Source: a virus. From it: a DNA stretch of 26,257 bases. Positions 1 to 26,257 of this stretch are shown here, in pieces. Numbering within the stretch: the stretch's first letter is position 1; every line of letters begins with the position of its first letter. The translations under genes were made by a program, and so were the position numbers. The stretch lies in the IMG/VR virus record IMGVR_UViG_3300031886_000033, positions 1-26,257 of that record; one strand, 5' to 3'. The notes beneath the pieces are model-generated. The model worked only from the letters and a program-made list of their open reading frames with translations. It had not been told where the DNA came from and did not search any database.

Positions 1-2
1 AA

Positions 3-2381
3 GATACTATAAAATTTGAAGGTGATATAACTTCAAACTTAAATCCAGATCAATCATTAACATATGATATAGGTGAAAATTCAAAAAGATGGGGATACTT
101 CCACGTAAAAAGTATGCCTAACTTAAACAATATTACTATTGATAACTTTATAAGTTTGAATGGTGTAGCTGTTAACTTAGGTATAACAAACAAATGGTAT
201 GTTACTACAGATGGTACTGATTCTTTATCAGGTACTCACCCTAACTTTGCATTTGGAACTATCAAACACACATTAGATCAACTAGAATCAAGTACAGGTG
301 GCCCACATGAAATTCATGTTTTTCCAGGAACATATGAAGAAAATTTTCCAATGGAAATTCCTGAAAATGTTACTATAAAAGGTGTAGGTCAAGGAACTGT
401 TCTTATAAAATCTCCAGTTATAACTGGTGATACAGCATTTTATTTAAATGATAATACTTCTGTACAAAATGTTACAATTGATGTTACTGGAAGTAACGCC
501 GCTTTTAGATTTGCCACAGGAACCAGTTCTGTTATAAACACAGGACCTTACATAGCAGACGTTAAAGTAAAAGGTCTTTTAGGTGTTTTGAATGCTGAGC
601 AAACTAATAGTGCTACCTATCCACCAGCACCAGGTTCTCAACCTAGTATAACATTTAAAAATGTTGATTGTAATTATGGTGGTGGTAGTGGCTCGGCAAT
701 TCTAGCATCAAATGGTGTACGAGTAGAAATGATAGACTGTACTATTGAAAATGCTAACAGTGTAATTTCTGCATCTCATGGACTTTTTGGTTTTGGAAAT
801 TTTGCTTATTCAGGTAACCCTTCTCATGATAATTCTGATCACATATATGGTACAGATATAAGAGCAGTAGGATGTATATTTCGAGATATAACAGATGCAG
901 TAATTCAAGCAGGTTATCATGGCCATGTAGGTGATGATATTCTAATTAATCTTATTGGTTGTACATTTATTAATGTAGAACAAACTACATCAATAACTGA
1001 GTGTCTTGATAATAAGAATCCTATAATATACACAAACATATTTGATGATAAAGGTATTTTTAGAATGGGGCAGGAAGAAGTTACTATATCTTCTGGAGAT
1101 ATACCTACTCCATATAATTTAACAATAAGAGATGATGAAACTACTTTTAAATCAAGTTCAATGACTTTAGAATATTCTCATATAAATTTTAGAGCTCCTG
1201 ATAGTACATTCATTGCTAGTGATTGGGTAGAAGCAGGTGATTTTACTCTTACAGAAAATACAATCCAAAGTAATTTTGGAGATATGAATTTAAAAGCAAC
1301 ATCTGGAACAACTAATATTCAAACAGATACAAAAATTCATTCAGATCTAGATGTAACAGGAAATACTATAATAGGTGGATCAATGATTACTTTAGGTGAT
1401 CAGCCAACAGATACTATTGATTTTTCTATGCAAATGACACAAGATTTAATGCCTACTGGAAGTACTGTACAAAATTTAGGATCAGCAACTAAAAATTGGT
1501 TTAAAACTAATTTTTCTACAGTAGATGTTGGAGACATTACTGCTTACAATAATGTTATGACTACAACTGTATCTAATGCTGATTTAGAAATGAGAGGCAG
1601 TGGTACTGGTAATGTTATTGCAGTTGATTTAACATTTGGAACAGGAATTGATTCTCCAAATGATATAGTTTTAGATGCAGGATCATCAACAGTTACAATT
1701 GATAGTACATCAGCATTGAATCTTCCTACAGGTACATCTGCACAAAGACAAGCACTAACTAGGGAATTAAGATTTAATACAGACACAAATTTATATGAAA
1801 CTTATTCAACAGGAGTAGCCCACGTTGGCGGAGTTAGAGATGCCGATTTAGACACATATATTGATGTATCTAGCAATAATGAAATGACATTTTATGGTGG
1901 TGGTAATAACATTGCTACTTTAGATGGAGCAGGAGTATTAACAGCAACAAAATTTAGTAGTCAAGATGAATTTGCACTTGACGGAAATTCAGTAACTGTT
2001 GGAAGTCCAGGAGCTGAAGCAGGATTAGAAGCAAATGGAAGTGGTAAAGTAATATTAGATACATCTAATTTTACAATGTCAGGAGGTGTACTTCTTAACA
2101 CAGAAAGTGGTAGTGATACAGTTTTTACAGGAACAGGATTAAAAATAGATAGATCTATTAAAGTTGACGCTCCAGCAATAAAATTTGGTAGTGGTACATC
2201 AGCAGAACAACAACAAAAAGCTGATTTAAGACAGGGTGAATTGTTCTGGAATACAGATGTTAGTATTCTTCAAGTTTACACAGGAGTAGATTGGAAGTCT
2301 GCAACAGGGCAAGAAGAATCTCAAATAACCATCGAAGATTTAGAAGCAATTAACTTAACATATAACTTAATAATTAATTAA
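3..2381 (+). CDS. beta-helix tail-fibre/adhesin protein, 5'-truncated by the window
   Basis: The reading frame is open from base 3 to the stop at 2379-2381 (792 codons seen). The first ATG at 114 is almost certainly internal: the 37 codons before it read as a fibre module (GDITSNLNPDQSLTYDIG, then KRWGYFHV) that matches the GDxxTSNxTPxxxxTYNxGSxxxRWNxxFAN module of the next gene. From about 195 comes a pectin-lyase-like parallel beta-helix entry (KWYVTTDGTDSLSGTHP, then IHVFPGTYEENFPMEIPENV), running to about 1080. Then follow fibre-trunk repeats (NLGSATKNWFKTNF at about 1474) and two copies of the phage-fibre motif TSAQR...RFNTDTNLYETY (about 1728-1800 and 2190-2310). The C-terminal ITIEDLEAINLTYNL resembles the end of the downstream paralogue. 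The likely role is a trimeric receptor-binding fibre; this is inferred from fold and context. No catalytic residues are claimed. Confidence 0.8.
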   Translation, partial: DTIKFEGDITSNLNPDQSLTYDIGENSKRWGYFHVKSMPNLNNITIDNFISLNGVAVNLGITNKWYVTTDGTDSLSGTHPNFAFGTIKHTLDQLESSTGGPHEIHVFPGTYEENFPMEIPENVTIKGVGQGTVLIKSPVITGDTAFYLNDNTSVQNVTIDVTGSNAAFRFATGTSSVINTGPYIADVKVKGLLGVLNAEQTNSATYPPAPGSQPSITFKNVDCNYGGGSGSAILASNGVRVEMIDCTIENANSVISASHGLFGFGNFAYSGNPSHDNSDHIYGTDIRAVGCIFRDITDAVIQAGYHGHVGDDILINLIGCTFINVEQTTSITECLDNKNPIIYTNIFDDKGIFRMGQEEVTISSGDIPTPYNLTIRDDETTFKSSSMTLEYSHINFRAPDSTFIASDWVEAGDFTLTENTIQSNFGDMNLKATSGTTNIQTDTKIHSDLDVTGNTIIGGSMITLGDQPTDTIDFSMQMTQDLMPTGSTVQNLGSATKNWFKTNFSTVDVGDITAYNNVMTTTVSNADLEMRGSGTGNVIAVDLTFGTGIDSPNDIVLDAGSSTVTIDSTSALNLPTGTSAQRQALTRELRFNTDTNLYETYSTGVAHVGGVRDADLDTYIDVSSNNEMTFYGGGNNIATLDGAGVLTATKFSSQDEFALDGNSVTVGSPGAEAGLEANGSGKVILDTSNFTMSGGVLLNTESGSDTVFTGTGLKIDRSIKVDAPAIKFGSGTSAEQQQKADLRQGELFWNTDVSILQVYTGVDWKSATGQEESQITIEDLEAINLTYNLIIN

Positions 2382-2420
2382 GCAATATTCTAGCATACTA
2401 CTACCTAATATCAAAATCCG

Positions 2421-2428
2421 TATAAATA
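2421..2428 (+). promoter_or_regulatory. T4-like late promoter, perfect TATAAATA
   Basis: TATAAATA lies in the longest gap of the window, 108 bases before the ATG at 2537. This is the consensus -10 of T4 late promoters (gp55-dependent in T4), and no -35 is expected. It is the only perfect TATAAATA I found on the + strand. It would transcribe the 1235-aa fibre gene and probably those following. Transcription would start a few bases downstream, near 2434-2437, leaving a leader of about 100 nt. Confidence 0.7.
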
Positions 2429-2433
2429 GTATT

Positions 2434-2536
2434 AATGTTTAAATTAGACCATATTTTAGACAGGACAAACTGTGGTTCAACCCGCAAGGTAATGTGGTTG
2501 GTGGGACAAGATCCCCGTGCTATAAGGAGATAGAGA
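2434..2536 (+). promoter_or_regulatory. long GC-richer 5' leader of the 1235-aa fibre gene
   Basis: About 100 nt separate the late promoter from the start codon, far more than at other junctions here. From about 2461 the sequence is clearly richer in G and C than its surroundings. It has two TGTGGTT copies (2471-2477, 2493-2499), two GGACAA copies (2463-2468, 2504-2509), a possible CAACC/GGTTG stem (2478-2482 with 2496-2500) and a GGGA/TCCC stem (2503-2506 with 2512-2515). A strong ribosome site AAGGAGA is at 2524-2530. Whether this is a structured control element or a conserved recombination anchor cannot be decided from one sequence. Confidence 0.45.
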
Positions 2537-5500
2537 ATGGCCGTTGGTCGAATTTCGGGACAGCTCTTAAAGTCCAACTTGCTTCGTAATGGAGTAAACC
2601 TGGCCTTCGAGACTGATCTTTTATACATTGATGTTAATAATTCTCGAATAGGAGTGAAAACTGCTACTCCTCAATATCCATTAGACATAAATGGAACAGC
2701 ACGTACAACAAATTTAGAAGTCACAAATCAAGCAGTAATCAACAATATCACAATTGGTGCTAATACAATATCAACTACTGCATCAGTTCTTAATATTACT
2801 TCACCAGACAGTATATTATACAATAATAAACTAGTAATAGATGACCTTATAATTGAAGGTAACACTATTACAGCCACAGAGTCTAATCAAAATTTTGAAA
2901 TTATAACAAGTGGTACAGGTATTGTACACGTAGATGCTGATATGAGAGTGGAAGGTAATATCCACGCTACAGGAGATATCAGAGCAGATGGTGATATTCA
3001 AATAGGTGACGCAGATACAGATTCAATTTCTATTGCGGCAGATTTTACAAGTAATATTACTCCAGATTTAACTGACACATATAATATGGGTTCCGCAGGA
3101 AAAAGGTGGAATGACGTATTTGCAAATAATTTAATTGTAGATAATCTTACATTGAATGGTAACATTACTGTACAAGGTCTTGACTTAACAGCCAGACCAG
3201 GTAAAATTTATTATGTTGCAACTAATGGTGATGATGCTAAAACAGGAACTCACCAAAATGATCCTTTTGAAACAGTTAAAAAAGCAACAGAAACAGCAAC
3301 AAATGGAGATTTAATTTATGTTTATCCGGGAACATATGTAGAAATTTTTCCATTAACAATTCCATCTGGAGTATCAATAAGAGGAGATGGAGTTAGAGCA
3401 GTTTTAATTACACCACATCCAAGTGTAATAGATAAAGATGCATTTCTTCTTAATGGTGAAACTACTATAGAAGATTTAACTGTTACAGGTTTTCGTTATG
3501 ATAGTGCAGGTAATACAGGACACGCATTTAGATTTAACACAGGTGCAGATAGCACTTATTTTGCACTTACTAGTGATATTCCTTTAATTAAAAATGTTTC
3601 AGTTATTACAGAAGGATCTGTAACGTCAGAGTCTGATCCAAGAGGATTTGATCAAGGAGATGCAGGAAAAGCCGCATTACTTGATGGATCAGTTATTTCA
3701 GGAGCTGACTTAGAACTTAGAGTTAGATTTCAAAATTGTACATTTATTACTCCAGGTATGAATGCATTAACAGTAACAAATGGTGTAAGAGTAGATTGGA
3801 TTAATTCATTTACATATTTTGCAGATGAAGGAATTAGAATTGAAGATGGTCCTACAGGAATAGCGGCGGCAGGAGAAACAAAAATAAAATATGCACAATT
3901 AGTAGGATCTACTCCAACGGCTACTGAAACAATTACTTACTATGATACAAATGGATCTACAAAATTAGGAGAAGCAACAATTAATTCAATTGATGGAAAT
4001 GGAACATTACATATTACTGGAAAATCTACAGGATTTGCACTAGCATCTACAAGAACAGTTAAAAAAGTTATACCAACAGGAACTACAATAGATTCTTCAA
4101 CTAAAAAATATGGAAGTGGAAGTTTTAAAAATGGTTTTATAAATGCAAATACAGATCATTTAAAAGTTGAAGGACATACAGATTTTGGTTTTGGTACTGG
4201 AGATTTTCAAATAGAAGGATGGTTTAATCCATCATCAGTACAAAGTAAAACTTTATTTAAAATAGGTAGACTTGAAGTTGATTTAAGTGGTAATGCTCCA
4301 AGAGTTAGACTTGATGGAAATGTTGTTGTAACTTCTGGAACAGGTCTTAATATTAATTCTTGGACACATTTAGTTGTAATGAGACAAAGTGGTAACTTAA
4401 GAATGTTCATTGGTGGTAATAATGAAGTAGATCAAAATGGTTGGAGTGCAGATTTAAAAAGTGCAAGTCCAGTTTATATTGGAAATAATGATATTTTTAC
4501 TTCAGCTTTTTATGGTCATATAGATGATATTAGAATAATCAACGGTAGTACAACATATACAGCAAATTTCACACCGCCTAGTTCACAATTAGTTAGTACA
4601 GATGTTTCGCAAGAAACTGTATTAATGTTAAATGGTAATGACTTTTCAGACAATGGAACTAGAGGACAAGACATTAGATTTTCAGGTGGTTCAACTGCTT
4701 CAGAAATTACTTTAGCTGATTATTCAGACTTTGGATCAGATTTTAGAAGTATGTCGAGTACATCTGTTTATGGAAATAAAGGAATTGTTGCACAAGGTCC
4801 TGGTGCAAATGTAACTTTAGTTAATCATAATTTTGCATATATAGGTAGCGGTAAAAGTTATGAAAATGATGATACAGCGGCTATTCAAGCAAATGAAGTT
4901 GTAGCAACAAATAGTGCAAAAGTAAATTACAATTCAACTGATCAAAGTGGTGATTTTAGACTTGGTGAATTATTTCATGTTAATCAAAAAACAGGTGTAG
5001 TAGAATTTAAAAGTGCTGATATAAGAATAGACACTGCAGGTTCTATGACAATTAATAATGGTTCAGACGCAACAGTAATAGATTCAACAAAAATAGAAAC
5101 AAATAAATTAAGAATGAGTGGACAAACTATTCAAAGTCTTGCAGGGGATCTTAATCTTAATTCATCTAGTAATTTAATTAATATATTGAATAATGTTAAT
5201 ATTCAAGGTCATTTAGAAGTTGTAGGTAATATAACAATAGGTGGTAACATAACAATAGGTGATGAAACTACTGATACTGTTACTATTACAGCAGGAATAG
5301 GAAGTGATATGACGCCTGCAATAGATAATACATATAATCTTGGTAGTTCAATTAATAGATGGAATACATTATTTGCAAATCAAATGCAAATAGATAGTAT
5401 TAATATTACTAATAATGTAATAACAACTACAGACAGTAATGCTGATTTAGAATTAAGAGCAAATGGAACTGGCGGAATTAGATTAGAATCATTTAGATTT

Positions 5501-6244
5501 GATCAAAGTACTATTACTAATGATTCAGGAGATATGACACTTACTCCTGCATCTGGAGTAGCAAGAGTTGATGGTACTGGAAGTATAAGAATTTCTTCAG
5601 GTACAACTGCACAAAGACCTGGAACTCCTGTTGCAGGTATGATACGTTATAATACAGATACAAGTTTATTTGAAGGTTATGATGGATCTATTTGGATAGC
5701 ACTAACAGGTGTATATGACATAGATAGAGACACTTACATAACAGCAGAACTTACACCAGGTGCAGATGATGATACTATTAGATTTTATGCTGGTGGAACT
5801 TTAGTTGCAAATGTAAATTCTACAAGATTTGATATAACAAAATTAATAGTAGATGACATAGAAATTAGTGGAAATACCTTAAAAACTACTGGGGTAAACC
5901 AGGATTTAATATTGAATGCAAACGGAACAGGTAGTATTAGGATTGAAGACTTTAAATTCGAAGGAAATACGATAACTAATACTATATCGGACCCTATCGT
6001 AATAAGAACGAGTGGAAATGGGTATGTAGACGTTTCAGATGCTGGAGGATTTGTACTTCCTTCAGGAACTGTAGTAGATAGACCTGCTGTTGCAGAGTTG
6101 GGTATGACAAGATACAATACTCAAGATAGCAGGGTAGAACTTTATGATGGAAATCAATGGGGTTCTATTGCAGGTTCTTCTGGTGCAATTAGTGTATTAG
6201 ATGCTACTGAAATTTCAATAACATACGCGATAGCTTTAGGATAA
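2537..6244 (+). CDS. large tail fibre with beta-helix and LamG-like lectin domain (1235 aa)
   Basis: The ATG follows AAGGAGA (2524-2530) at normal spacing. The N-terminus (MAVGRISGQLLKSNLLRNGV) looks like a conserved virion-attachment segment. Order: trunk module with TYNMGSAGKRWNDVF (aa 156-198); pectin-lyase-like entry KIYYVATNGDDAKTGTH with VYPGTYVEIFPLTIPSG (from aa 224); beta-helix to about aa 438; a concanavalin/LamG-like domain (about aa 518-701: YGSGSF, GTGDFQIEGWF, SWTHLVVMRQSGNLRMFI, GHIDDIRIINGSTTY); beta-helix continuation (about aa 735-790); TDQSGDFRLGELFHVNQKTG (aa 800-820); a second trunk module; and two TAQRP...RYNT...YDGxxW motifs (aa 1023-1058 and 1174-1212). The LamG fold commonly binds glycans, so host-surface binding is likely. 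It is a paralogue of the preceding gene. Specific receptor and stoichiometry are unknown. Confidence 0.82.
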   Translation: MAVGRISGQLLKSNLLRNGVNLAFETDLLYIDVNNSRIGVKTATPQYPLDINGTARTTNLEVTNQAVINNITIGANTISTTASVLNITSPDSILYNNKLVIDDLIIEGNTITATESNQNFEIITSGTGIVHVDADMRVEGNIHATGDIRADGDIQIGDADTDSISIAADFTSNITPDLTDTYNMGSAGKRWNDVFANNLIVDNLTLNGNITVQGLDLTARPGKIYYVATNGDDAKTGTHQNDPFETVKKATETATNGDLIYVYPGTYVEIFPLTIPSGVSIRGDGVRAVLITPHPSVIDKDAFLLNGETTIEDLTVTGFRYDSAGNTGHAFRFNTGADSTYFALTSDIPLIKNVSVITEGSVTSESDPRGFDQGDAGKAALLDGSVISGADLELRVRFQNCTFITPGMNALTVTNGVRVDWINSFTYFADEGIRIEDGPTGIAAAGETKIKYAQLVGSTPTATETITYYDTNGSTKLGEATINSIDGNGTLHITGKSTGFALASTRTVKKVIPTGTTIDSSTKKYGSGSFKNGFINANTDHLKVEGHTDFGFGTGDFQIEGWFNPSSVQSKTLFKIGRLEVDLSGNAPRVRLDGNVVVTSGTGLNINSWTHLVVMRQSGNLRMFIGGNNEVDQNGWSADLKSASPVYIGNNDIFTSAFYGHIDDIRIINGSTTYTANFTPPSSQLVSTDVSQETVLMLNGNDFSDNGTRGQDIRFSGGSTASEITLADYSDFGSDFRSMSSTSVYGNKGIVAQGPGANVTLVNHNFAYIGSGKSYENDDTAAIQANEVVATNSAKVNYNSTDQSGDFRLGELFHVNQKTGVVEFKSADIRIDTAGSMTINNGSDATVIDSTKIETNKLRMSGQTIQSLAGDLNLNSSSNLINILNNVNIQGHLEVVGNITIGGNITIGDETTDTVTITAGIGSDMTPAIDNTYNLGSSINRWNTLFANQMQIDSINITNNVITTTDSNADLELRANGTGGIRLESFRFDQSTITNDSGDMTLTPASGVARVDGTGSIRISSGTTAQRPGTPVAGMIRYNTDTSLFEGYDGSIWIALTGVYDIDRDTYITAELTPGADDDTIRFYAGGTLVANVNSTRFDITKLIVDDIEISGNTLKTTGVNQDLILNANGTGSIRIEDFKFEGNTITNTISDPIVIRTSGNGYVDVSDAGGFVLPSGTVVDRPAVAELGMTRYNTQDSRVELYDGNQWGSIAGSSGAISVLDATEISITYAIALG

Positions 6245-6251
6245 AATAGAG

Positions 6252-6581
6252 ATGGCAACATATTTTAAAAATGCAATAGTAAAAAACATTGGAACACTAC
6301 CGGTGACAATTTATACGCCACCTGTAGGAACTAATGCAATTGTGTTGGGTCTTAATCTTGCAAATTTAATATCTAGTGTAGTAAAAGTTAGTGTAACATT
6401 ACAAGACCTTACTAGTGCGTCAGGATTTCTTATTAAAGATGTAATGATTGCACCTAATTCGAGTTTAAGAGTTTTAAGTGCTGGAGAAAAATTAATAGTA
6501 GCGGCTCAAAGCACGTTATCAGTAAATTCTGATATTACTGATTCTGTAGATGTAGTCGCAAGTTATGTGGAGTTAACGTAA
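6252..6581 (+). CDS. small conserved virion-associated protein (109 aa)
   Basis: It starts 7 bases after the fibre stop, with AGGA at 6238-6241 overlapping that gene's end as a weak ribosome site. The protein is a short all-beta-looking chain with no signal peptide or membrane segment. It has the pattern SSLRVLSAGEKLIVAAQSTL followed by SVDVVASYVEL. The 106-aa protein at 23014 has a comparable plan: an N-terminal strand, a mid-protein loop, then an (A)GxKLxV turn and a final strand with VVxGIE. I read both as small accessory proteins of the fibre region. The specific function is not recognised. Position between a fibre gene and a co-directional operon supports a structural or fibre-attachment role. 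Confidence 0.65.
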   Translation: MATYFKNAIVKNIGTLPVTIYTPPVGTNAIVLGLNLANLISSVVKVSVTLQDLTSASGFLIKDVMIAPNSSLRVLSAGEKLIVAAQSTLSVNSDITDSVDVVASYVELT

Positions 6582-6582
6582 A

Positions 6583-7041: not shown

Positions 7042-7047
7042 GGAGAC

Positions 7048-7065
7048 ATGGGAGCAAACAAATGA
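7048..7065 (+). other. five-codon mini-ORF overlapping the next start codon
   Basis: After the strong ribosome site AAGGAGA (7040-7046, overlapping the upstream stop), an ATG at 7048 encodes only MGANK. It ends in a TGA (7063-7065) that overlaps the ATG at 7062 as ATGA. The long gene's own site would be GGAG at 7051-7054, inside the mini-ORF. The layout fits termination-reinitiation coupling, but the better-spaced ATG for AAGGAGA could simply be incidental. Confidence 0.25.
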
Positions 7066-9653: not shown

Positions 9654-9659
9654 TAATTT

Positions 9660-10007: not shown

Positions 10008-10016
10008 AATGGAGAA

Positions 10017-10024: not shown

Positions 10025-10042
10025 CTTTAGGGATATAATTCG

Positions 10043-16864: not shown

Positions 16865-16879
16865 AGATTTAACGGTAAT

Positions 16880-16887
16880 GATAAATA
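16880..16887 (+). promoter_or_regulatory. late-promoter-like GATAAATA box
   Basis: GATAAATA lies in the 48-base gap before the 2028-aa gene, 25 bases upstream of AAAATGG. The ribosome site AAAGGA follows at 16897-16902, a layout matching the box at 23361. It fits a T4-like late promoter. Confidence 0.5.
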
Positions 16888-16912
16888 ATATACAACAAAG
16901 GATTATATAAAA

Positions 16913-19900
16913 ATGGCTGAGTTTAAACTAGGTAGAATTAGATTTGTTTGGAAAGGTTCTTGGGTAACTTCAACATCATATTACGTCGATGACGTTATAA
17001 GATATGGTGGAAGAACCTATAATTGCGTATCAAATCACATTGCTAACGCAGATTTCCAAGTAGACTTATCTGCTGAAAACTGGCAATTAATGTCCGATGG
17101 TCAAGAATGGAAAAGTGACTGGTCATTAAACACAGTTTACAAACCAAATGATGTTGTAAAATATGGTGGTTACATTTATATTTGTAACACAGGACACACA
17201 TCTGCCGCAACGGTAGAACTTGGCTTAGAAAATCATCAATCTTATTGGGATTTATTTGTAGAAGGATTTGATTGGAAATCTGATTGGACAATTTCTACTA
17301 GATATAAAGTAAATGATTTAGTAAAATATGGTGGATCAGTTTATCTTTGTATAGAAGAACACACATCAGATACAACAACAGCAGTTGGCTTAGAAGGAAA
17401 ACAAAGCAAATGGGAAATTTTTGGAAAAGGTTTTGTTTGGTTAGGCGACTGGGCAATTAATACTAGATACAGAGTAAATGATACAGTTAGATACGGTGGA
17501 CAAATTTATATTAACATAACTGGACATACTTCAGCGGCAACTATCGCAGATGGTTTAGAAGCCAATCAAGCACAATGGCAAGCCTTACACAAAGGAATAG
17601 AATATTTAGGTGCTCACGCGGCAACAACAAGATATAAAGTTAATGATGTAGTAAAATATGGTGCAAATATTTGGATTGCTACAGCGGCACATACATCAAC
17701 AACTTCTTTAGCGGCTGACGAAGGTAATTGGTCAGTTTTAATTCCAGGTTTAGAATTTGAAGATACTTGGGATTCTTCAACACAATATCAACCAGGTGAC
17801 TTTATTACTTACGGTGGATATAGTTATGTTTCAAATACAAATAACGTTAATAAAAATCCACCTCTTAATTCAAGTGATTGGACATTATTTGTAACAGGAT
17901 TTAATTTAAGAGGCGACTATAATGCCGTTACTGCATACAAACAAGGTGACGTTGTTAGAGTTGGAGGTTTTACATATCTCGCAATTGCAGACACAACAGG
18001 TAATAAACCACCAAGTGTTTTACACTGGGATAAACTTAATGAAGGTTTATATTGGAAAGGTAATTGGGCAAATGCAACTGAATTCGACAGAGGTGATATA
18101 GTAAGAGGAACTACTAACACTAATACAAGTTATATTTGCGTAACAGGACACACATCAAATAATGTTGGACCAAGTACAATTAATCAACCAGACTATCCAC
18201 CAGGAGCAGGTGTCGATACTAGTGTTTGGTCATTATTAGCATCAGGAACAGAAAACGCTGTACTATCAGTAAAAGGTGATCTTTTAATTTATGGTCAATC
18301 AGGACCAGCTAGATTGCCAATTGGTAAAGCAGGACAAACTTTAATTGTAAACTCAGCAGGTGATCTTCCTGAATGGGGATACTTTGGAGCTGTAGATCAA
18401 GTTTATTATGTTTCAGAAACAGGAACAGATGTTCCAGCACCTGATTCAGGACCAACACTTGACAAACCTTGGAAAACTTTAAGATATGCTTTATGGCAAA
18501 TTGAACAAGGACCAAGAAATCCTCAAGGAACTTACATGATGGAAAGAAACAAAGCATTTATTCAAGCAGAAATTATAGCTTGGATTAACGCTCAAATTTC
18601 TGGAAACATTTCACCTTTCACATCAGGTTATACATACGACGCGGCAAAATGTACAAGAGACTCTGGATTAATGATTGATGCAGTTCTATGGGATTTAAGA
18701 CATGGTGGAAATGAAAAATCAAGATATGCAACACTTAGAATTTCAACTCAAACAGAATTTGTAAATAATTCTGCTGAATTACAAGCCTATCTTACTAGAT
18801 TAGTTTATATTACACAACAAGTTACAGCCAACAATGCAGGTTATTCTGCAGGACAAGGTACAATAAATCAAGTTGTTGATAACAATTATACTGCGGAGCC
18901 GGCTGTTAATGGAGAAATTGCAAGTTATATACAAATTGCAATAGATTGTCTTGCGGCAGGTAATACATCTGGAGTACCTATAGAAGAAATAGCACAAACT
19001 ACATTATTTGTTAAAACAGGAACATACGAAGAAGTGTTACCTCTTTCAATAAGAAAAGGAACAGCACTAGTAGGAGATGAATTAAGATCAACAGTTATTA
19101 AACCAGCGGGACAACAATCTTCAGTAAGCGACACAGCATTTACATTACAAGGTATTGGTAGAATGCAGGCAATTTTGTCTGACATAGTTCAGAACGTTGC
19201 TGTAACACCAACACCTGTAGGAGGTGTTACATTTTTAACAACACCTGCACCAGATTTAGGTTTTGTTAATGGAACTTACACTAACGTTGCAGTAACAGGT
19301 GGAACTGGAACAGGATGTACAGTAGATTGTACTGTTTTATCATTTGCAATTACGGCTTTGTCTATAAATTCACCAGGACAGAATTATGTAGTTTCTGATG
19401 CATTAACAATTCCAGCGGCAACAATTGGAGCAGATGGAGTTTCAACTGTAACAGGAGTTACAACAGGAAATAATTTAACTCAAAATACAGATCTTCCTGT
19501 AGGTTCAGCGGCGGCAGGTACAGCGGCGGCGGCAATTGGACAAAATATTATAGATCATATAACTTACAAAGTTAATGCAACTGGATCTGATCCAGCATTA
19601 ACTGGTGTTAATAGTGCAGATTCAACTGCAGGTTTCACAGATGCAAGATTAAGACTATTAGCAAATAAAGAATTTATTGCATTAGAAGCCGCGGAGTTTG
19701 TACAAAGAGCAAATCCAACTCATAGTAATTTTAAAGAAAAATGTTTGAATGATATTAGAATATATGTTCAAACAATTATGGACGACTTAGAATATACCGG
19801 CAATTATAAATCATTGAAAGCCTCAGATGCCTACATTAATTCTAGACTTGCAAAAGGTTCTAGTGCAAATGATATGTTCTATGTTAGAAATGCTTCAGGA

Positions 19901-22900
19901 ATAAGAAATGTAACAGTAGAAGGTTTAATAGGAACATTAGGTACTACTCAATTCTCTACAACAGCGGCAACATACACACCAGCAACAGGTGTAATGGAAT
20001 TAACTATTGGATCACATAGTATTGCTGTTGGTGAAAAAGTAATGATTGCTTCAAATAGTTTAATCTTTACTTGCGATCAAGATACTCACGCTACTCAACA
20101 TAGCTATCCAAGAGCAACTGATCCTTATTACAATAAAGAAATTTTAGTTACAGGTGCGACAGCGACTACAATTACAATGAATGTTGGAATATCAAGTAAT
20201 ACAACAGGACATACATTTGTAATGGCTACTGAAGATAATGTAACATTAGCTACTGCAAATGAATATGGAACAAAAAGACCAACAGGTGGAGCATATGTAT
20301 CATTAGATCCAGGTTGGGGACCAGCACATGAAGAAGTATGGATTAAGTCTAAATCACCTTATATCCAAAATGTAACAACTTGGGGAGAAGGTTGTGTTGG
20401 AGTAAAAGTAGACGGTGCATTACACGATGGTGGTTTTGATTCTATCGTTGGAAATGACTTTACACAATTATGCGATAATGGTATTGGTGCTTGGATTACA
20501 AATTTAGGTAGAGTAGAACTTGTATCAGTATTTTCTTATTATGCACACATAGGTTACCTTTGTGAAAATGGTGGAAAACTTCGTTCTACAAACGGAAATT
20601 CATCTTATGGTGATTTTGGTTGTGTTGCAGAAGGAACAGATGCAAGTGAAACTCCAATAACAGCAACAATAGATAATAGAAGTACAGATGCAGTTATTGA
20701 CAATGTTATAACAGATGCTAATCAAATATTAGCATTTGAATATGATAATGCAGGTAGACAATATAGTAATGCAACATTTACTATATCTGGACCTGGTTAT
20801 GGAATTGCTGGAACAACTCCAACTTATAATACTGGTGGTGTTTACAAAATTAGATTAATAGAAACTAATCAAGAAGTAAGTGATCAAGGTGGATCAACTT
20901 ACATGACTGCACTTAATACTGGACAAACAGGTGACACTACATCAATTACTATAGCTAACGCAGATAGTAATGCCTCAGGGGCTTATCCTGGAATGGCAAT
21001 ATGGATTGTAGAAGGAAAAGGTGTAGGACAATATGCATATATTAATACTTACAATGCAACAAGTAAAGTTGCAACTGTTAAAAAATATTCAAATAGTGCA
21101 GACGGTTGGGAAAGACTTGGAGGTTTAGCGGTAGAGGCAACATTAGACAATACAACAAAATATAGTATTGAACCGAGAGTAGTTATTGCGGCTCCTCAAG
21201 ATGATGGAAGTACAGCAGTTAGACAAGCAGTTGCAAGAGCAGTTGTTACAACAGAAAAAATTTCCAAAGTAAAAATTATAGATTGCGGAGCAAGTTATAC
21301 TTCAGCACCTACTGTAACATTTACTGATCCTAACAATACTACAGATGCTCCAGTACAATCATACATAGATGATGGTGTATTAGGACAACCAACTTTCTCT
21401 GCAAGAGGAATTGACTTTGAAACTGCAAGTGCAACAGTATCTGACGCAGGAAGCGAAAAAGTTATTACAGGTATTTCACAAGCAAATCCAATGGAAGTTA
21501 CAGCCGTAGCTCATAATTTTGTTGATGGTCAAAAAGTTGTATTTTCTGATATAGTTGGTATGACAGAATTAAATTCTGGTGTATATTTTTATATTAGATC
21601 TACAAGTGTAGATACATTTGCAGTTTACATTGACTTTGATTTAAATAATGGATTAGATTCAACTAATTTCACAGCATACGTTTCAGGTGGTAAAGCAACA
21701 AGCTTCGGTGGATTTAGAGATGAATATCAATTTGGAAGATATCTTCAAGTAGAAGGATTAACAAAAGTACCTCAAGCAGGTTCTAATATAGAATTTGATG
21801 GCATTGGTTCTACAACATATCCTTATGCATATGATGTTCTAACTTCAAATAAAGAATTTTTAAAAGATGAAGTTGTTTCTTGGTTTGATAATACTGGTTA
21901 TCCAGGTGTTCATTCTCAAGCAGAATTAGATAAGTGCGAAAGAGACGTAGGATATGAAATAGATGCGTTAGCACATGATTTAAAATTTGGCGGTAATACA
22001 GAAACAGTTAGGGTAGCAAAATTTTATTGGATTGGAACTAATACACAACTAGGCGTAGGTGAACAAGCCTATGCAGTTGCAGTTAATAATAAATTAAAAG
22101 AAATAATTAATGGTTATATTCTTACTAATACTGGTTGGTCAACAGAACAAACTCCAGTTGTTACTACTCAAACTACAACTGCATTTAATGGAGAAACTGG
22201 TACAATAGATAAAATTACAACATTAATTACAAACTTTAATGATGTTATTGAAAATGGTTTAACATCATTACCAGCTACAATAGGATTAAATAATCCTTAC
22301 TACAAAATAGTAAGTGTTAAAAATCAAGCAGGATCACAAGCTCCTTATTCAGCACTATTACAAATTAGTCCACAATTAAGTGTAGCACAATCACAAGAGC
22401 ATGGTTCTCAAGTGACAATGAAATTTAGATACAGTCAAGTTAGATTGACTGGTCATGACTTTTTGGATGTTGGTACTGGTGACACAGCTAACACCAATTA
22501 TCCTGGAACACCTTTAAATGATCCAGATTCAGCTAATGAAGCCGTTGGAAGAGGTGGAGGTAGAGTATTCTTCTCCGCAACTGATCAAGACGGTAACTTT
22601 AAAGTTGGAGAATTATTCTCAGTACAACAAGCAACAGGTATTGCTACGTTGAATGCTGATGCATTTAATATTTCAGGATTACAAGAGCTTCAGTTAGGAG
22701 ATCAAACATTAGGAGGCACTAGTGCCGCTATTAATGAATTCTCCACTGACGGGACAATGGCGGCTAATAGTGATTCCATTGTACCAACACAACGGGCAAT
22801 AAGAACTTATATCGCTTCACAAATTGGTGGTGGTGCAAGTTCTATTAACGTTAACTTGATAACTGCAGGATTAATTCAGATATCAGGCAATTCAATAAAT

Positions 22901-22999
22901 ACAACAACAGGAGTAAGCATCAATATTGCAAGTCCAGTTAATTTCCTTAAAGGGGTTAGCGGAGGACCATTGGCGATGAACTTCTTAATACATAGTTAA
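16913..22999 (+). CDS. giant multidomain adhesin, paralogue of the preceding gene (2028 aa)
   Basis: Ribosome site AAAGGA at 16897-16902. Order: N-terminal MAEFKLGRIRFVWKGSW; eight stalk repeats (aa about 13-443; e.g. WTISTRYKVNDLVKYGGSVY); QVYYVSETGTDVP pectin-lyase entry (about aa 496), broken by a helical NKAFIQAEIIAWI module with KCTRDSGLMIDA (aa 544-610), then FVKTGTYEEVLPLSI; a Gly/Thr-rich segment; a second NKEF module (aa 916-980); one YTPATG repeat (aa 1011-1114); beta-helix (aa 1116-1244); WIVEGKGVGQYAYI; ASYTSAPTVTFTD (about aa 1455); an FCCH-like segment (about aa 1515-1600: AHNFVDGQKVVFSDIVGMTE); a third NKEF module (aa 1643-1740); and the shared C-terminus (VRLTGHDFLDVGTG, TDQDGNFKVGELFSVQQATG, INEFSTD, VPTQRAIRTYI). 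It lacks the Asp-box propeller of its paralogue. The likely role is a fibre or baseplate-associated adhesin. Confidence 0.8.
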   Translation: MAEFKLGRIRFVWKGSWVTSTSYYVDDVIRYGGRTYNCVSNHIANADFQVDLSAENWQLMSDGQEWKSDWSLNTVYKPNDVVKYGGYIYICNTGHTSAATVELGLENHQSYWDLFVEGFDWKSDWTISTRYKVNDLVKYGGSVYLCIEEHTSDTTTAVGLEGKQSKWEIFGKGFVWLGDWAINTRYRVNDTVRYGGQIYINITGHTSAATIADGLEANQAQWQALHKGIEYLGAHAATTRYKVNDVVKYGANIWIATAAHTSTTSLAADEGNWSVLIPGLEFEDTWDSSTQYQPGDFITYGGYSYVSNTNNVNKNPPLNSSDWTLFVTGFNLRGDYNAVTAYKQGDVVRVGGFTYLAIADTTGNKPPSVLHWDKLNEGLYWKGNWANATEFDRGDIVRGTTNTNTSYICVTGHTSNNVGPSTINQPDYPPGAGVDTSVWSLLASGTENAVLSVKGDLLIYGQSGPARLPIGKAGQTLIVNSAGDLPEWGYFGAVDQVYYVSETGTDVPAPDSGPTLDKPWKTLRYALWQIEQGPRNPQGTYMMERNKAFIQAEIIAWINAQISGNISPFTSGYTYDAAKCTRDSGLMIDAVLWDLRHGGNEKSRYATLRISTQTEFVNNSAELQAYLTRLVYITQQVTANNAGYSAGQGTINQVVDNNYTAEPAVNGEIASYIQIAIDCLAAGNTSGVPIEEIAQTTLFVKTGTYEEVLPLSIRKGTALVGDELRSTVIKPAGQQSSVSDTAFTLQGIGRMQAILSDIVQNVAVTPTPVGGVTFLTTPAPDLGFVNGTYTNVAVTGGTGTGCTVDCTVLSFAITALSINSPGQNYVVSDALTIPAATIGADGVSTVTGVTTGNNLTQNTDLPVGSAAAGTAAAAIGQNIIDHITYKVNATGSDPALTGVNSADSTAGFTDARLRLLANKEFIALEAAEFVQRANPTHSNFKEKCLNDIRIYVQTIMDDLEYTGNYKSLKASDAYINSRLAKGSSANDMFYVRNASGIRNVTVEGLIGTLGTTQFSTTAATYTPATGVMELTIGSHSIAVGEKVMIASNSLIFTCDQDTHATQHSYPRATDPYYNKEILVTGATATTITMNVGISSNTTGHTFVMATEDNVTLATANEYGTKRPTGGAYVSLDPGWGPAHEEVWIKSKSPYIQNVTTWGEGCVGVKVDGALHDGGFDSIVGNDFTQLCDNGIGAWITNLGRVELVSVFSYYAHIGYLCENGGKLRSTNGNSSYGDFGCVAEGTDASETPITATIDNRSTDAVIDNVITDANQILAFEYDNAGRQYSNATFTISGPGYGIAGTTPTYNTGGVYKIRLIETNQEVSDQGGSTYMTALNTGQTGDTTSITIANADSNASGAYPGMAIWIVEGKGVGQYAYINTYNATSKVATVKKYSNSADGWERLGGLAVEATLDNTTKYSIEPRVVIAAPQDDGSTAVRQAVARAVVTTEKISKVKIIDCGASYTSAPTVTFTDPNNTTDAPVQSYIDDGVLGQPTFSARGIDFETASATVSDAGSEKVITGISQANPMEVTAVAHNFVDGQKVVFSDIVGMTELNSGVYFYIRSTSVDTFAVYIDFDLNNGLDSTNFTAYVSGGKATSFGGFRDEYQFGRYLQVEGLTKVPQAGSNIEFDGIGSTTYPYAYDVLTSNKEFLKDEVVSWFDNTGYPGVHSQAELDKCERDVGYEIDALAHDLKFGGNTETVRVAKFYWIGTNTQLGVGEQAYAVAVNNKLKEIINGYILTNTGWSTEQTPVVTTQTTTAFNGETGTIDKITTLITNFNDVIENGLTSLPATIGLNNPYYKIVSVKNQAGSQAPYSALLQISPQLSVAQSQEHGSQVTMKFRYSQVRLTGHDFLDVGTGDTANTNYPGTPLNDPDSANEAVGRGGGRVFFSATDQDGNFKVGELFSVQQATGIATLNADAFNISGLQELQLGDQTLGGTSAAINEFSTDGTMAANSDSIVPTQRAIRTYIASQIGGGASSINVNLITAGLIQISGNSINTTTGVSINIASPVNFLKGVSGGPLAMNFLIHS
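19945..20254 (+). repeat. single YTPATG repeat inserted in the beta-helix of the 2028-aa adhesin
   Basis: One unit (TTAATYTPATGVMELTIGSH ... SSNTTGHTFVMATEDNVT) sits between GIRNVTVEGLIGTLG and ANEYGTKRPTGGAYV. The paralogue at 10043 has GIANMTMQGKTGGLT joined directly to AANEYGTKRTTGGAYV at the same place. This copy has the short form YPRATDPYYNKE and lacks the GSAAPGG stretch of the other repeats. Confidence 0.85.
20594..20635 (+). repeat. 42-base exact direct repeat, copy B
   Basis: This is identical to 12497-12538. A second near-identical block lies upstream in both genes (12158-12201 and 20255-20298, encoding ANEYGTKRxTGGAYV), so the repeats bracket a homologous region that could support recombination between the two adhesin genes. 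Confidence 0.8.
22894..22901 (+). promoter_or_regulatory. possible intragenic late box AATAAATA
   Basis: AATAAATA near the 3' end of the 2028-aa gene lies about 112 bases upstream of the 106-aa gene, which otherwise has no promoter box in its 14-base gap. A match of this length can occur by chance in AT-rich coding DNA. Confidence 0.2.
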
Positions 23000-23013
23000 A
23001 GGAGAGAAAACAC

Positions 23014-23334
23014 ATGGCTTCAGGAAGATTAGGAAAAGCGGATTTGGTTGCCACTACTGATACTGTAGTATACACGTGTCCAGCGGATACATTTACCGTG
23101 GCCACCGTGTCTATCTGCAATAGAGGTAATCAAGTTATTACACTAAAAATGTCGGTGTCAGACTCAGGTACTCCAGATGCGTCAGAATATGTAGAATATG
23201 ATACAGAAGTTCTGTCACACGGAGTATTAGAACGAACTGGTTTAGTAATGAATGCTGGACAAAAGCTCGTTGTATGGTCTAACGCTGTAAATGTTAGTGC
23301 AGTAGTTATGGGTATTGAAACTGGTACTTCGTAA
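23014..23334 (+). CDS. small conserved virion-associated protein (106 aa)
   Basis: A strong ribosome site AAAGGAG (22998-23004) spans the upstream stop and the ATG follows about 9 bases on. The protein (MASGRLGKADLVATTDTVVY) is a compact beta-rich chain with VATVSICNRGNQVITLKMSV, a DASEYVEYD segment, VLERTGLVMNAGQKLVVWSN and a final VNVSAVVMGIE. This order is familiar from small marine-phage fibre-region proteins, and it parallels the 109-aa protein at 6252 in size, the GxKLxV turn and the final strand. No enzyme motif, signal or membrane segment is present. The probable role is a minor structural or fibre-associated subunit; the exact function is unknown. Confidence 0.68.
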   Translation: MASGRLGKADLVATTDTVVYTCPADTFTVATVSICNRGNQVITLKMSVSDSGTPDASEYVEYDTEVLSHGVLERTGLVMNAGQKLVVWSNAVNVSAVVMGIETGTS

Positions 23335-23360
23335 TAATTACGTAGAATTAGCTTAAATAA

Positions 23361-23368
23361 CATAAATA
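23361..23368 (+). promoter_or_regulatory. late-promoter-like CATAAATA box
   Basis: CATAAATA lies 29 bases before the ATG at 23398 in a 63-base gap, followed by the ribosome site AAAGGA (23383-23388). The box, spacing and ribosome site repeat the arrangement before the gene at 16913. It would serve the 110-aa protein and possibly the Cys-rich trio. Confidence 0.5.
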
Positions 23369-23397
23369 GTTAAAATAGATACAAAGGACATAGAAAA

Positions 23398-23730
23398 ATG
23401 GGAAGATATATATCAACAACTGGAACTGCTGGTGCTGTTACTAGAGAAGTCTCTACAACATACGCCGCATTAGTTAATGATAGAATTCTTGCTGACAGTA
23501 CAGGTGGAGCATTTACAATAACTCTACCGGCAAATGCTGGTTTGTTAATTAATGATACAATTCAAATCATTGATGCAACATCTCAAACTGGCGTAAATGC
23601 AATAACTGTTGGAAGAAACGGATCATTAATTCAGGGAGTGGCAGAAGATTTAACTGTTGACTTACCTGGAGCGATAATGACTATGGTTTATACTGGTGCA
23701 ACATACGGTTGGATCTTAGGTGCTGTATAA
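23398..23730 (+). CDS. small fibre-like protein with NDRILADSTGGAFTITLPAN motif (110 aa)
   Basis: It is preceded by AAAGGA (23383-23388) and a CATAAATA box. The sequence carries NDRILADSTGGAFTITLPAN, then DTIQIIDATSQTGVNAITVG, RNGSLIQGVAEDLTVDLPGA and MVYTGATYGWIL. This is a short beta-structured domain that recurs in phage tail-fibre proteins, often as the C-terminal part of a longer fibre. Here it stands alone as a separate gene. No transmembrane segment, signal or catalytic site is visible. The role is probably a small fibre or tip component; binding target unknown. Confidence 0.7.
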   Translation: MGRYISTTGTAGAVTREVSTTYAALVNDRILADSTGGAFTITLPANAGLLINDTIQIIDATSQTGVNAITVGRNGSLIQGVAEDLTVDLPGAIMTMVYTGATYGWILGAV

Positions 23731-23781
23731 GAATTATTATTAATTTTTTTACACAACAGTTTTATTTAGGAGAGTTAAGAG

Positions 23782-24771
23782 ATGAGTGCATTAAGCACAA
23801 TGCTGACAACAAAAAAAGTAGGTTTTACCGAAGCCGAAGAACAGAATCTTGAGAAAGGAAGAATTTATACATATACTCAAGGGGCTAATTGGTCTAGACT
23901 TTGGTGCGGATTTTGTTTTCATCCTGAAGTAGCAGGAACAGTATATTTAGAATCATGGGGAGCTGGCGGTAGTGGCGGTAAAATGTGCTGTTGCGGTTTT
24001 GGCTTACCTGGTAACTCTGCGGCTTATGCCTATAGAAAATTTGATCTAGGAGAAAATGGATTTATTTGCGGATGTACAGGTCAATCATGTGGTAATGCAG
24101 ATACATTATGTCACAGAGGTTGTTCTGAACCAACGTTCATGAATATTTCTACTGGTTTAGGTGAATGTACTTGCGTTTGTACTCAAGGTGGTGCAGGCGG
24201 AGTTTCTTATTGTTCTACTAATACTTCATTTTATTGTTGTTTTGCGGCAAACGGTTTTTGTGCAACAAAAACTGATAACGATCACTGCGGATGGGTATGT
24301 AATATGTGCGATGGAAAACATATAGCTCAAGCATATTGCGGAGATGCAGGTTTTAATTGTCCAGGAAGAACTTCTTGTGTAGCGGCTTTTGGTTGTTACC
24401 CATTATGTATTTGTAATTTTACTCACTACGCACCTACACCTGCAGGTATGTTTAGTAAAGAAGGAATGTATGTCGCTTTTAATACAGAAAACGATAACGG
24501 ATTTTCATCATGGTCAGGACAAGGTGCACACCAATTAGAAGCATCTTTAGGGGCTGGAAGATGGCCTACAGGTGGTATACCTTGGGCAACTTGCTGGGGA
24601 GCAAGTAAAGGTTGTCACTGTCAAATAGGTGAACCTTGTATACCTCACGTTCCAGTTGGAATGGGAGGACACGGATCAATGCCATGTCCACAAGTAAGAG
24701 ATCACGCAAGTAGAGGAGGTCACGGTGGAGTACGAATTAAATTTATTCGTAACGACGAACCGACTCAATAA
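23782..24771 (+). CDS. Cys- and Gly-rich putative fibre-tip protein, copy 1 (329 aa)
   Basis: Ribosome site AGGAGAG at 23769-23775. It has 31 Cys by my count, about 9 percent, most in CxC, CCC and CC clusters, plus many Gly. N-terminal helix-like lead (aa 1-30), then WCGFCFHPEVAGTVYLESWG, AGGSGG, MCCCGFGLPGN; later CTCVCTQGGAGG, YCC, NCPGRTSC, GCYPLCIC, and a C-terminal SRGGHGGVRIKF. The VxxWGAGGSG element is typical of phage glycine-rich domains. The start shares NLEKGRIYTYTQG with the next two genes. It could be a disulfide- or metal-stabilised tip adhesin, but this is inference. No zinc-finger family fits well. It is the first of three tandem paralogues. Confidence 0.75.
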   Translation: MSALSTMLTTKKVGFTEAEEQNLEKGRIYTYTQGANWSRLWCGFCFHPEVAGTVYLESWGAGGSGGKMCCCGFGLPGNSAAYAYRKFDLGENGFICGCTGQSCGNADTLCHRGCSEPTFMNISTGLGECTCVCTQGGAGGVSYCSTNTSFYCCFAANGFCATKTDNDHCGWVCNMCDGKHIAQAYCGDAGFNCPGRTSCVAAFGCYPLCICNFTHYAPTPAGMFSKEGMYVAFNTENDNGFSSWSGQGAHQLEASLGAGRWPTGGIPWATCWGASKGCHCQIGEPCIPHVPVGMGGHGSMPCPQVRDHASRGGHGGVRIKFIRNDEPTQ

Positions 24772-24783
24772 AGAGAGATTATT

Positions 24784-25797
24784 ATGCCAGCATCATCATT
24801 AACAGCATTATTACAAACGAAGTATGATTACCCATTAGCTAATGAAACTAATTTAGAAACGGGACAGCTTTTTACATTTTATCCTAGTAATCAATATAGC
24901 ACTAATTTTTGGTGTCATATTTGTTGGAAACCACCAGCAAATGGTATAGCTACAATTGAAGTATGGGGTGCGGCTGGATCAGGTGCAGAAATGTGCTGTT
25001 GCGGTGGAGGAATTCCAGGCAATCCAGGCGGTTATTCTAGAAAAGTATTACCAGAATTTGGAGCATCTTGGGCCGATTGTTATATTTGTGCTCAGATAGG
25101 TTTATCTTGTAATAACACAGACGATTTATGTTACAGAGGAATGTCAGAACCAACTCAAGTTTGTTGGTTAGCTGGTGATTCCGATGGATGTATTTGTGCT
25201 CAAGGTGGTAGAGGTGGAACATCATTCTGCTCATCTAGTCCAGCAATGTATTGTTGTTACCTAACAAATGACTGGTGTGGTACACAAGCCGGTGGAGCAG
25301 GTTGCGGTATAATTTGTAATTACAGAGATGATGGTGGTACAAATTATGACGGTGCAGATTATTGTGCATTTGCTTATGGTGGAGATGTAAACTGTTATGG
25401 CGGATTTAGTTGTATGTACTTTAAAAACTGTTATCCAAACTGTAACTGTAGACAAAATCCAGTAATTAGAATTCCACCAGGAATGATTTCAGAAAAAGGT
25501 GGACAAGTTCAATACGCAATGGATACAGATAATCAAAGATCTTATTGGTCAGGAATGGGCGGAATTTTTGGAGTAATGGAACCATTAAATATGGCAACAA
25601 GAAATCCAACTCAAGGAGCTCCTTATAATGCTTGTTGGACAGGTAATGACTCTTGCGGATGTTATCAAGATCAAGGAGCAATTAACTTCTTCCCTGGAGG
25701 AATTCCAGGACAAGGTCCTACACCTTGCGATGGTGTAAGAGATCACGCTTGGAGAGGCGGAAACGGAATAATGAGGATTAAATTTGTAGCTTCGTAA
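24784..25797 (+). CDS. Cys- and Gly-rich putative fibre-tip protein, copy 2 (337 aa)
   Basis: It starts 12 bases after copy 1, with AGAGAG (24772-24777) as a modest ribosome site. It has 28 Cys by count. Alignment by eye: NLETGQLFTFYPSNQYSTNF, then WCHICWKPPANGIATIEVWG, AAGSGAEMCCCGGGIPGNPG, SCNNTDDLCYRGMSEPTQVC, GCICAQGGRGG, YCC, a GCGIIC segment, NCYPNCNC, CDGVRDHAWRGGNG and the final MRIKF. Cys positions, the RDHAxRGGxG...RIKF end and the AGSG core match copy 1, so this is a tandem duplication with strong divergence between conserved Cys and Gly sites. The role is as for copy 1 and is unproven. No signal peptide or membrane segment. Confidence 0.75.
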   Translation: MPASSLTALLQTKYDYPLANETNLETGQLFTFYPSNQYSTNFWCHICWKPPANGIATIEVWGAAGSGAEMCCCGGGIPGNPGGYSRKVLPEFGASWADCYICAQIGLSCNNTDDLCYRGMSEPTQVCWLAGDSDGCICAQGGRGGTSFCSSSPAMYCCYLTNDWCGTQAGGAGCGIICNYRDDGGTNYDGADYCAFAYGGDVNCYGGFSCMYFKNCYPNCNCRQNPVIRIPPGMISEKGGQVQYAMDTDNQRSYWSGMGGIFGVMEPLNMATRNPTQGAPYNACWTGNDSCGCYQDQGAINFFPGGIPGQGPTPCDGVRDHAWRGGNGIMRIKFVAS

Positions 25798-25815
25798 AAA
25801 GGAGTAAATAGTATT

Positions 25816-26257
25816 ATGGCAACATTGAAAAAAATATTAGGTGAAAGAACAGCCGGAGGCGGTATAGAACAAAACATAGAAAAAGGTTATATCTATGCTT
25901 ATTCTCCAGGTACTCAACATTCAAATTTTTGTAATGGAGTTTGCTGGACTGCACCTTCAAATGGTAAAGCAATTGTAGAAATTTGGGGAGCTGGTGGATC
26001 TGGTTCTCGTATGTGTTGTTGTGGTGATGGATTACCAGGCAATGCAGGAGGTTATTCTAAGAAAACTCTTGCAATTACGGCAGATGATACTATTACAGCT
26101 TCTTTAGGAATGGCTTGTATGTCTCACCCACTTTGTCACTCAGGTTGCGGTAGTCCAACTCAATTATGTTATGTAACAGCCGGTAGTAATGGAAATGGTT
26201 GTATGTGTGCTAGAGGTGGATATGGCGGGAAATCAATGTGTACTACAGGTACATCTT
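25816..26257 (+). CDS. Cys- and Gly-rich putative fibre-tip protein, copy 3, cut by the window end
   Basis: The ATG follows AAAAAGGAGT (25796-25805, overlapping the previous stop). The frame stays open to the last base, giving 147 complete codons. The visible part (MATLKKILGERTAGGGIEQN, IEKGYIYAYSPGTQ, CNGVCWTAPSNGKAIVEIWG, AGGSGSRMCCCGDGLPGNAG, LCHSGCGSPTQLCY, GCMCARGGYGG) matches the N-terminal half of copies 1 and 2. Twelve Cys are seen so far. By comparison with the neighbours, about half the protein lies beyond the window. The function is inferred from the family and is unknown. Confidence 0.75.
   Translation, partial: MATLKKILGERTAGGGIEQNIEKGYIYAYSPGTQHSNFCNGVCWTAPSNGKAIVEIWGAGGSGSRMCCCGDGLPGNAGGYSKKTLAITADDTITASLGMACMSHPLCHSGCGSPTQLCYVTAGSNGNGCMCARGGYGGKSMCTTGTS

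Follow-up and report, generated by a model that had tools for sequence, protein, structure and literature searches.

The window, by which we mean the whole stretch of viral DNA analysed, comprises the 26,257 nucleotides of IMG/VR record IMGVR_UViG_3300031886_000033 (our G000, which is exactly the window, no more and no less); its open reading frames (ORFs) resemble long structural and tail-fibre-like proteins and adhesins rich in glycine (Gly) and cysteine (Cys). Throughout positions 1 to 26257, in DNA of 35% G+C, neither GCAGC nor GCTGC (together GCWGC, where W is A or T) occurs on either strand, as an initial annotation made from the sequence had claimed. A Markov expectation built from 3- and 4-base words predicts 32.1 sites (z −7.0), and this is the lowest z of all strand-merged 5-mers in the window (certain 4-mers reach z −7.7). 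The other words that had been described as present are indeed so: GCCGC 25 times, GCGGC 34, GATC 91, GGCC 9, GCGC 6, CCAGG 37 and CCTGG 17. Five strand-merged 5-mers have a count of zero, with Markov expectations of 32.1 for GCAGC, 3.4 for CCCCC, 1.9 for CCTCG, 1.8 for CCCTC and 0.9 for CGCGC. Base composition alone would predict the also-missing CCCTC (19.3) and CCTCG (16.6) no less often than GCAGC (15.5); what carries the claim is therefore the Markov and codon controls and not mere absence. Among 5-bp palindromes centred on W or on S (G or C), GCWGC is the most depleted (0 against 31.8 expected), followed by CASTG (12 against 34.2).

The coding sequence shows the same exclusion. In 12 ORFs covering 25,272 coding bases, 1,000 synonymous codon shuffles gave 48.9 ± 2.9 GCWGC sites and never fewer than 40, against none observed, while GCSGC occurs 59 times against 11.9 in the shuffles; it looks as if GCW-GCN pairs (N, any base) had been rewritten as GCS-GCN. 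Alanine (Ala) is encoded by GCA or GCT in 568 of 697 cases, and all 59 Ala-Ala pairs begin with GCG (34) or GCC (25), in agreement with what had been noticed by eye. An Ala run that the initial annotation placed at about 19522, GCGGCGGCGGCA, exists and occupies positions 19523 to 19534 (+ strand). Likewise, none of the six Cys-Cys pairs is TGC-TGC, as claimed, and two of them are TGT-TGC, a form missing from the earlier description. The absence is uniform: each of five successive 6-kb blocks (the last shorter) has no GCWGC, and they contain 6, 14, 21, 14 and 4 GCSGC.

The exclusion extends to many relatives. A conserved structural protein of 109 amino acids (6252 to 6581, + strand) was the query that yielded 52 related viral contigs; 49 of these have no GCWGC and the others have 2, 2 and 1, with about 7 to 37 expected in each, and homologues also occur in contigs with normal counts. 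We then considered 16 long contigs, selected because loci on them were GCWGC-poor. Thirteen have no site at all (expected: G001 195; G002, of 267,783 bases, 305; G003 207; G004 188; G005 152; G006 132; G009 102; G011 85; G012 94; G013 73; G014 106; G035 147; G037 92), and three have residual sites (G036, 1 of 114 expected; G018, 4 of 56; G017, 7 of 87, four of the seven within one gene, G017|39). The thirteen amount to 1.76 Mb and about 1,878 expected sites, which are partly redundant and not independent because the contigs were preselected and some are near-duplicates; the terminases of G002, G003 and G007 are identical. The 26-kb record that makes up the window comes from a lineage of jumbo phages, large tailed phages with T4-like genes. 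The terminase family PF03237 is found in 14 of 20 long records, the T4-like genes of G002 include a terminase, a tail sheath and a UvsX-like recombinase, and the G002 terminase matches 2552 phage records, the best of which belong to jumbo phages, Pseudomonas phage PA5oct (53%) among them. At the nucleotide level, megablast of positions 1 to 25000 of the window against the phage collection gave no match.

Near relatives with normal counts provide the comparison. Eight contigs whose terminases are 77–80% identical to that of G002, with similar G+C, together have 1903 GCWGC against 2034 expected (G021, of 357 kb, 770/868; G022 260/311; G023 127/136; G024 192/183; G025 127/130; G026 138/135; G027 153/138; G028 136/135). 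Among the best 80 of at least 599 terminase relatives, 30 loci are GCWGC-poor (observed/expected below 0.1), 5 low and 45 normal (at least 0.6). On a quick maximum-likelihood terminase tree (98 rows), five changes are needed for the 'normal' label, four of them forced by support of at least 95, and six for the 'null' label, five of them forced, a number that includes switches between null and low. The labels of short loci on this tree rest on few expected sites, and the null label of 14 rows was taken from the contig; five of these contigs (G007, G008, G010, G015 and G016) were checked over a single 20-kb locus each. One large clade is almost entirely GCWGC-poor, and G014, L140, G017 and L192 are placed among normal phages; the loss has apparently recurred in the lineage, this tree requiring a minimum of four switches between the normal and the GCWGC-poor state. 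In 50-kb samples of other phages, GCWGC is normal in PA5oct (61 observed, 51 expected), Phosso (106/118), Vibrio phage 2.275.O (73/78), PBECO4 (72/58), S-SRM01 (64/47) and Melnitz-3 (72/88), and the absence was not found in samples of the same length from SAR11 phage HTVC008M (65/59), SAR116 phage HMO-2011 (98/145) or Roseobacter phage CRP-9 (173/132).

These comparisons bear on whether codon choice, mutation bias or base composition could have emptied the window of GCWGC with no nuclease involved. The phages are A+T-rich, have strong biases and show depletion of several other words, all of which would suit such an origin; however, the absence persists against both synonymous shuffles and the Markov expectation, it affects both strands while GCSGC is raised, and relatives of similar G+C have normal counts, so that we find this explanation hardly credible.

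The missing word is sharply defined. We divided the GCWGC-poor contigs into six groups: A (G001 to G005), B (G006, G009, G036), C (G011 to G013, G035), D (G014), E (G017, G018) and F (G037). Pooled over members of A to E, GCAGC stands at 11 of 1505 expected, versus 1903 of 2034 in the normal contigs, and no other 5-mer with at least 25 expected falls below 0.49. For two GC half-sites separated by different spacers, the W spacer is at 0 (11/143 in E) and the S spacer is raised; a WW spacer is at 0.16–0.19 of expectation in A, B, C and F and 0.7 in D and E, no spacer at 0.19–0.56, and a WWW spacer at 0.74–1.0. In ORFs of at least 150 amino acids, none of 1433 Ala-Ala pairs starts with GCA or GCT in nine contigs without GCWGC, compared with 1018 of 1176 in five normal contigs, and the Ala-Ala dipeptide itself is at 0.84 of expectation in the former and 1.14 in the latter.

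Other palindromes are missing in a patchwork. RCATGY (R, purine; Y, pyrimidine), a site of NspI-like enzymes, is absent from the whole window (1 to 26257), where none of 39 CATG sites has R...Y flanks, and AGCT, the site of AluI-like enzymes, is present 51 times. RCATGY is also at zero in G001 (36 expected), G004 (40), G006 (37), G009 (33) and G035 (30), as well as in G011 (10), G012 (13) and G013 (7); it stands at 32/45 in G037 and 185/225 in G002, and is near normal in G002, G003, G005, G014, G017, G018 and G036. Individual loci are too short to be judged for this word (1 of 44 has enough expected sites). AGCT has a different distribution: 0/424 in G004, 0/354 in G035, 0/216 in G036 and 16/198 in G037, with 0.6 to 0.9 of expectation in the remaining GCWGC-poor contigs (for example, 638/828 in G002 and 589/675 in G001). 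Among loci of at least 10 kb, some of which share a contig, AGCT is missing in 33 of 126 that are GCWGC-poor and in 0 of 49 that are normal. All-or-none losses of palindromes in varied combinations would be the trace expected of changing host restriction repertoires.

There is good support for selection against cutting at GCWGC, in that the depletion is site-specific, common to many relatives and recurrent; that the agent is a nuclease, that the host encodes it and which enzyme it is are what we infer. Our preferred explanation, to which we give a probability of roughly three in four, is that GCWGC was purged under type II restriction by the hosts. Hosts of the lineage would long have carried an enzyme cutting unmethylated GCWGC (or asymmetric GCAGC), and each site would have been a potentially lethal double-strand break upon entry, because no methyltransferase of the two families searched was found in these phages: PF00145 and PF01555 each match none of 34 records (23 GCWGC-poor and 11 normal, mostly fragments, in a set that excluded the window's own record, G035, G036 and G037). 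Mutants that had lost sites would have won until no GCWGC remained, with Ala-Ala pairs driven to GCG-GCN or GCC-GCN and GCSGC rising in return, and sublineages that met hosts with further enzymes may have purged AGCT or RCATGY, also in an all-or-none manner. The initial annotation had proposed selection either by host restriction or by a phage nuclease; selection stands, and of the two putative agents the host one fits better because of the patchwork of other lost palindromes and because no nuclease-like gene in the sequence covered tracks the trait.

The second of those agents would be a GCWGC-specific nuclease encoded by the phages, degrading host or rival phage DNA while site exclusion confers self-immunity. 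We regard this as unlikely, and as slightly less likely again the fuller version in which the nuclease is turned on host and rival DNA, self is told by its erased sites and sister lineages have added AGCT or RCATGY cutters. A cutter at work in every infection would be expected to leave many subclades wholly without the site, as is seen here, and the want of any PF00145 or PF01555 match in 34 records is also in keeping with it. However, when the gene content of the six GCWGC-poor groups was compared with that of the eight normal contigs, nothing nuclease-like by eye tracked the absence. The only clusters present in all six groups and in no normal contig (16 versus 8 contigs) were adhesins and a conserved 110-amino-acid protein. 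In the window this protein lies at 23398 to 23730 (+ strand), adjoining two tandem Gly/Cys-rich adhesin-like genes (23782 to 24771 and 24784 to 25797, together 23782 to 25797, + strand). Searches of the phage collection with the two adhesin proteins found no match at 1e-5. Among the best 80 of 241 loci found with the 110-amino-acid protein, 58 are GCWGC-poor (56 with no site and 2 with one) and 22 are normal; because the adhesins stand beside it in both kinds alike, they are context only and not diagnostic, and we rejected the adhesins and the 110-amino-acid protein as a tail marker of GCWGC-poor phages. Likewise, 30 ORF rows common to at least two GCWGC-poor groups and without a normal homologue (a redundant set, with queries from four contigs) include nothing nuclease-like in the stretch read. 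Phage-encoded cutting would require further cutters for AGCT and RCATGY, and nothing nuclease-like by eye tracked those absences either: two ORFs linked to AGCT are mutually homologous, membrane-transporter-like by eye and missing from G035, and 41 ORF rows are tied in part to RCATGY. In this comparison, five groups are represented by contigs of 45–134 kb, from genomes possibly larger than 350 kb. ORF calling was mechanical, BLAST supplied the homologies, and functions were judged by eye on incomplete sequence; a phage-encoded cutter is thus disfavoured by a gene comparison covering partial genomes.

The HNH family PF01844 matches three of the 21 records searched above its cut-off, and all three are normal; of three weaker matches, one is in GCWGC-poor G017. 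The family phrog_1314 occurs in 4 of 13 GCWGC-poor and 3 of 12 normal records, giving no clean separation; both were rejected as trait genes. From G002, 204 ORFs passed a filter (80–750 amino acids, a homologue in at least two other contigs, no crossing of a piece border), and 188 were scanned in two sets (89 and 99), with 16 left out, 13 of them adhesin and tail-region genes. No family named REase_II appeared among the best 25 of 44 PADLOC families in the first set or among 23 of 23 in the second; single members match models of type IV, type IIG and type I enzymes. The PHROGs comparison of these ORFs covered the best 25 of 131 and the best 25 of 83 families. Seven G002 ORF proteins (alignment A5) match the PADLOC viperin model and may be ordinary radical S-adenosylmethionine (SAM) enzymes, as PHROGs labels several of them.

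The search of related phages and candidate hosts for GCWGC enzymes that the initial annotation had suggested yielded, beyond the negative result for phage methyltransferases, one host lead. The loci of terminase relatives in genome bins differ in their GCWGC counts: zero in L406, L407, L408 and L412, 2 of 30 expected in L403 and L404, and near expectation in L405, L409, L410 and L411. PF00145 matches were found in two of five such bins (G047 and G046) and a weak PF01555 match in one. The bin MED657 (G047) contains phage contigs L408 and L412, with terminases at 58% identity, GCWGC at 0/18 and 0/16, and AGCT at 0/72 pooled. It also carries two loci resembling restriction-modification (R-M) systems, C15 and C25 (L498, L500, L502), each pairing two C5 methyltransferases with nuclease-like genes. 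At one, two ORFs match a single PADLOC type II endonuclease model (PDLC03402), so that the putative endonuclease appears split; at the other, the cysteines and histidines of a 464-amino-acid protein are arranged in an HNH-like way as judged by eye, and the protein matched nothing above the cut-off. C5 methyltransferases occur in 11 of 32 genomes of MED657's order. GCWGC is the specificity of TseI, and lake Chloroflexi carry N4-methylcytosine (m4C) methylation at GCWGC, according to the text available from PMC6329791; the specificity therefore exists in nature, which is not evidence for its occurrence here.

Several observations weigh against host restriction. The ten terminase relatives in genome contigs all come from metagenome bins spanning several phyla; because the bins point to several phyla, binning is no proof of host, and we rejected host assignment through these terminases while keeping MED657 as a lead. 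The endonuclease of its first locus is found in only 2 of the 32 genomes of the order, MED657 included, and none of the genes found in the phage records and MED657 loci searched is proven to be specific for GCWGC. Depletion also reaches GCGC in part and, in groups A, B, C and F, GCWWGC, which one textbook enzyme would not predict; GCAAGC is low in groups A, B and C (51/228, 14/55 and 8/31), and because it is not palindromic this misfits a plain palindromic enzyme. Total absence over so wide a group exceeds what host restriction usually leaves, and PMC6286503, in the part accessible, found 3.9% of host sites excluded at CB < 0.1. Finally, phrog_274, labelled 'DNA endonuclease V', matches all 13 GCWGC-poor records searched and 5 of the 12 normal ones, several of which are short contigs. 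It is the single association pointing in the direction of a phage factor; the enrichment among GCWGC-poor phages is not exclusive, and we rejected the family as a trait gene for want of a clean separation. Its label is itself doubtful, in that the match at G002 20959 to 21267 lies within a protein read by eye as a 2-oxoglutarate (2OG) oxygenase.

A host enzyme need not be an orthodox palindromic type II enzyme. A cutter of asymmetric GCAGC, such as a BbvI-like type IIS, type III or BREX-like (bacteriophage exclusion) system, or a methylation-dependent nuclease, would also be a host agent; we judge this improbable, more so than a phage-encoded nuclease. Because GCAGC and GCTGC are reverse complements and thus form the same set of sites, asymmetric and palindromic recognition predict identical absent words and are indistinguishable by counting. 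The other words lost in these phages, AGCT and RCATGY, are palindromes, however, and a methylation-dependent cutter would require the phage DNA to be methylated. In the portion of PMC6286503 available, GCWGC is also among type IIM sites; type III sites were very rarely avoided there, and for type I and type IIG no avoidance was seen.

We consider these phages most likely to show, in extreme form, an adaptation familiar from other phages: the purging of a site, here GCAGC/GCTGC, that is cut by a type II restriction enzyme of the bacteria they infect. Restriction-site avoidance as such is already known, and what is new here is its completeness, its breadth and its recurrence in this lineage; in the accessible parts of the literature on GCWGC, phage restriction-site avoidance and jumbo phages, we found no published account of the absence in this lineage. 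As far as the available text of PMC6286503 goes, avoidance mainly affects DNA phages that are not temperate, at the sites of orthodox type II enzymes. The present case resembles these in the exclusion of a probable type II site and in phages that may likewise be non-temperate, with double-stranded DNA; that study differs in having paired known hosts with known enzymes. Staphylococcus phage K, whose GATC sites have been eliminated against Sau3A (PMC6532042, seen in part), is a large phage that has entirely lost a type II site, as the present phages probably have; here, however, the lineage is uncultured and wide, the site is another one, the quick tree implies several origins and further palindromes are lost in a patchwork. 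In the pelagiphages, according to the sections of PMC9516812 at hand, about half of 33 are depleted of GANTC, clustered by phylogeny, and the host methyltransferases of the GANTC motif are reported to lack matching endonucleases. They too split clade-wise into depleted and normal phages for one methylation motif, whereas here the motif is GCWGC, the absence complete and the phages jumbo.

If the hosts drove the loss, the missing words would be a restriction fingerprint of those hosts and a testable handle linking uncultured jumbo phages to bacteria; if the phages drove it, it would represent a new viral way of discriminating self from non-self. The lineage would document with great clarity how restriction shapes phage genomes in nature: far more than a thousand sites that would be expected are missing, their loss apparently happened repeatedly, and normal near relatives serve as controls.

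These jumbo phages are not alone in having lost a 5-mer across a whole clade, because the Melnitz-like T4-like clade is nearly without GGACC and CGACG. In the best 80 of 597 loci of this clade of OM43 methylophages (PMC9004378), GGACC is at 1/336 and CGACG at 4/300, with GGWCC lost from 79 of 80 loci and CGWCG from 76 of 80, many of them short. W-centred 5-mers are thus almost wholly lost there as well; the words differ, GCWGC is near normal (1169/1337), and an HhaI-like methylase gene is annotated in Melnitz-3. In the same phages (L413 to L492; Melnitz-3 is L493, L494, L120 and L495), CGCG is also nearly absent and GGWWCC strongly reduced. The SAR11 myophage HTVC008M (L377, 50 kb) shows losses of its own, with TCGA at 0 (39 expected), TCAAGA at 0 (33), TCTAGA at 0 (13) and CACTG at 2 (65).

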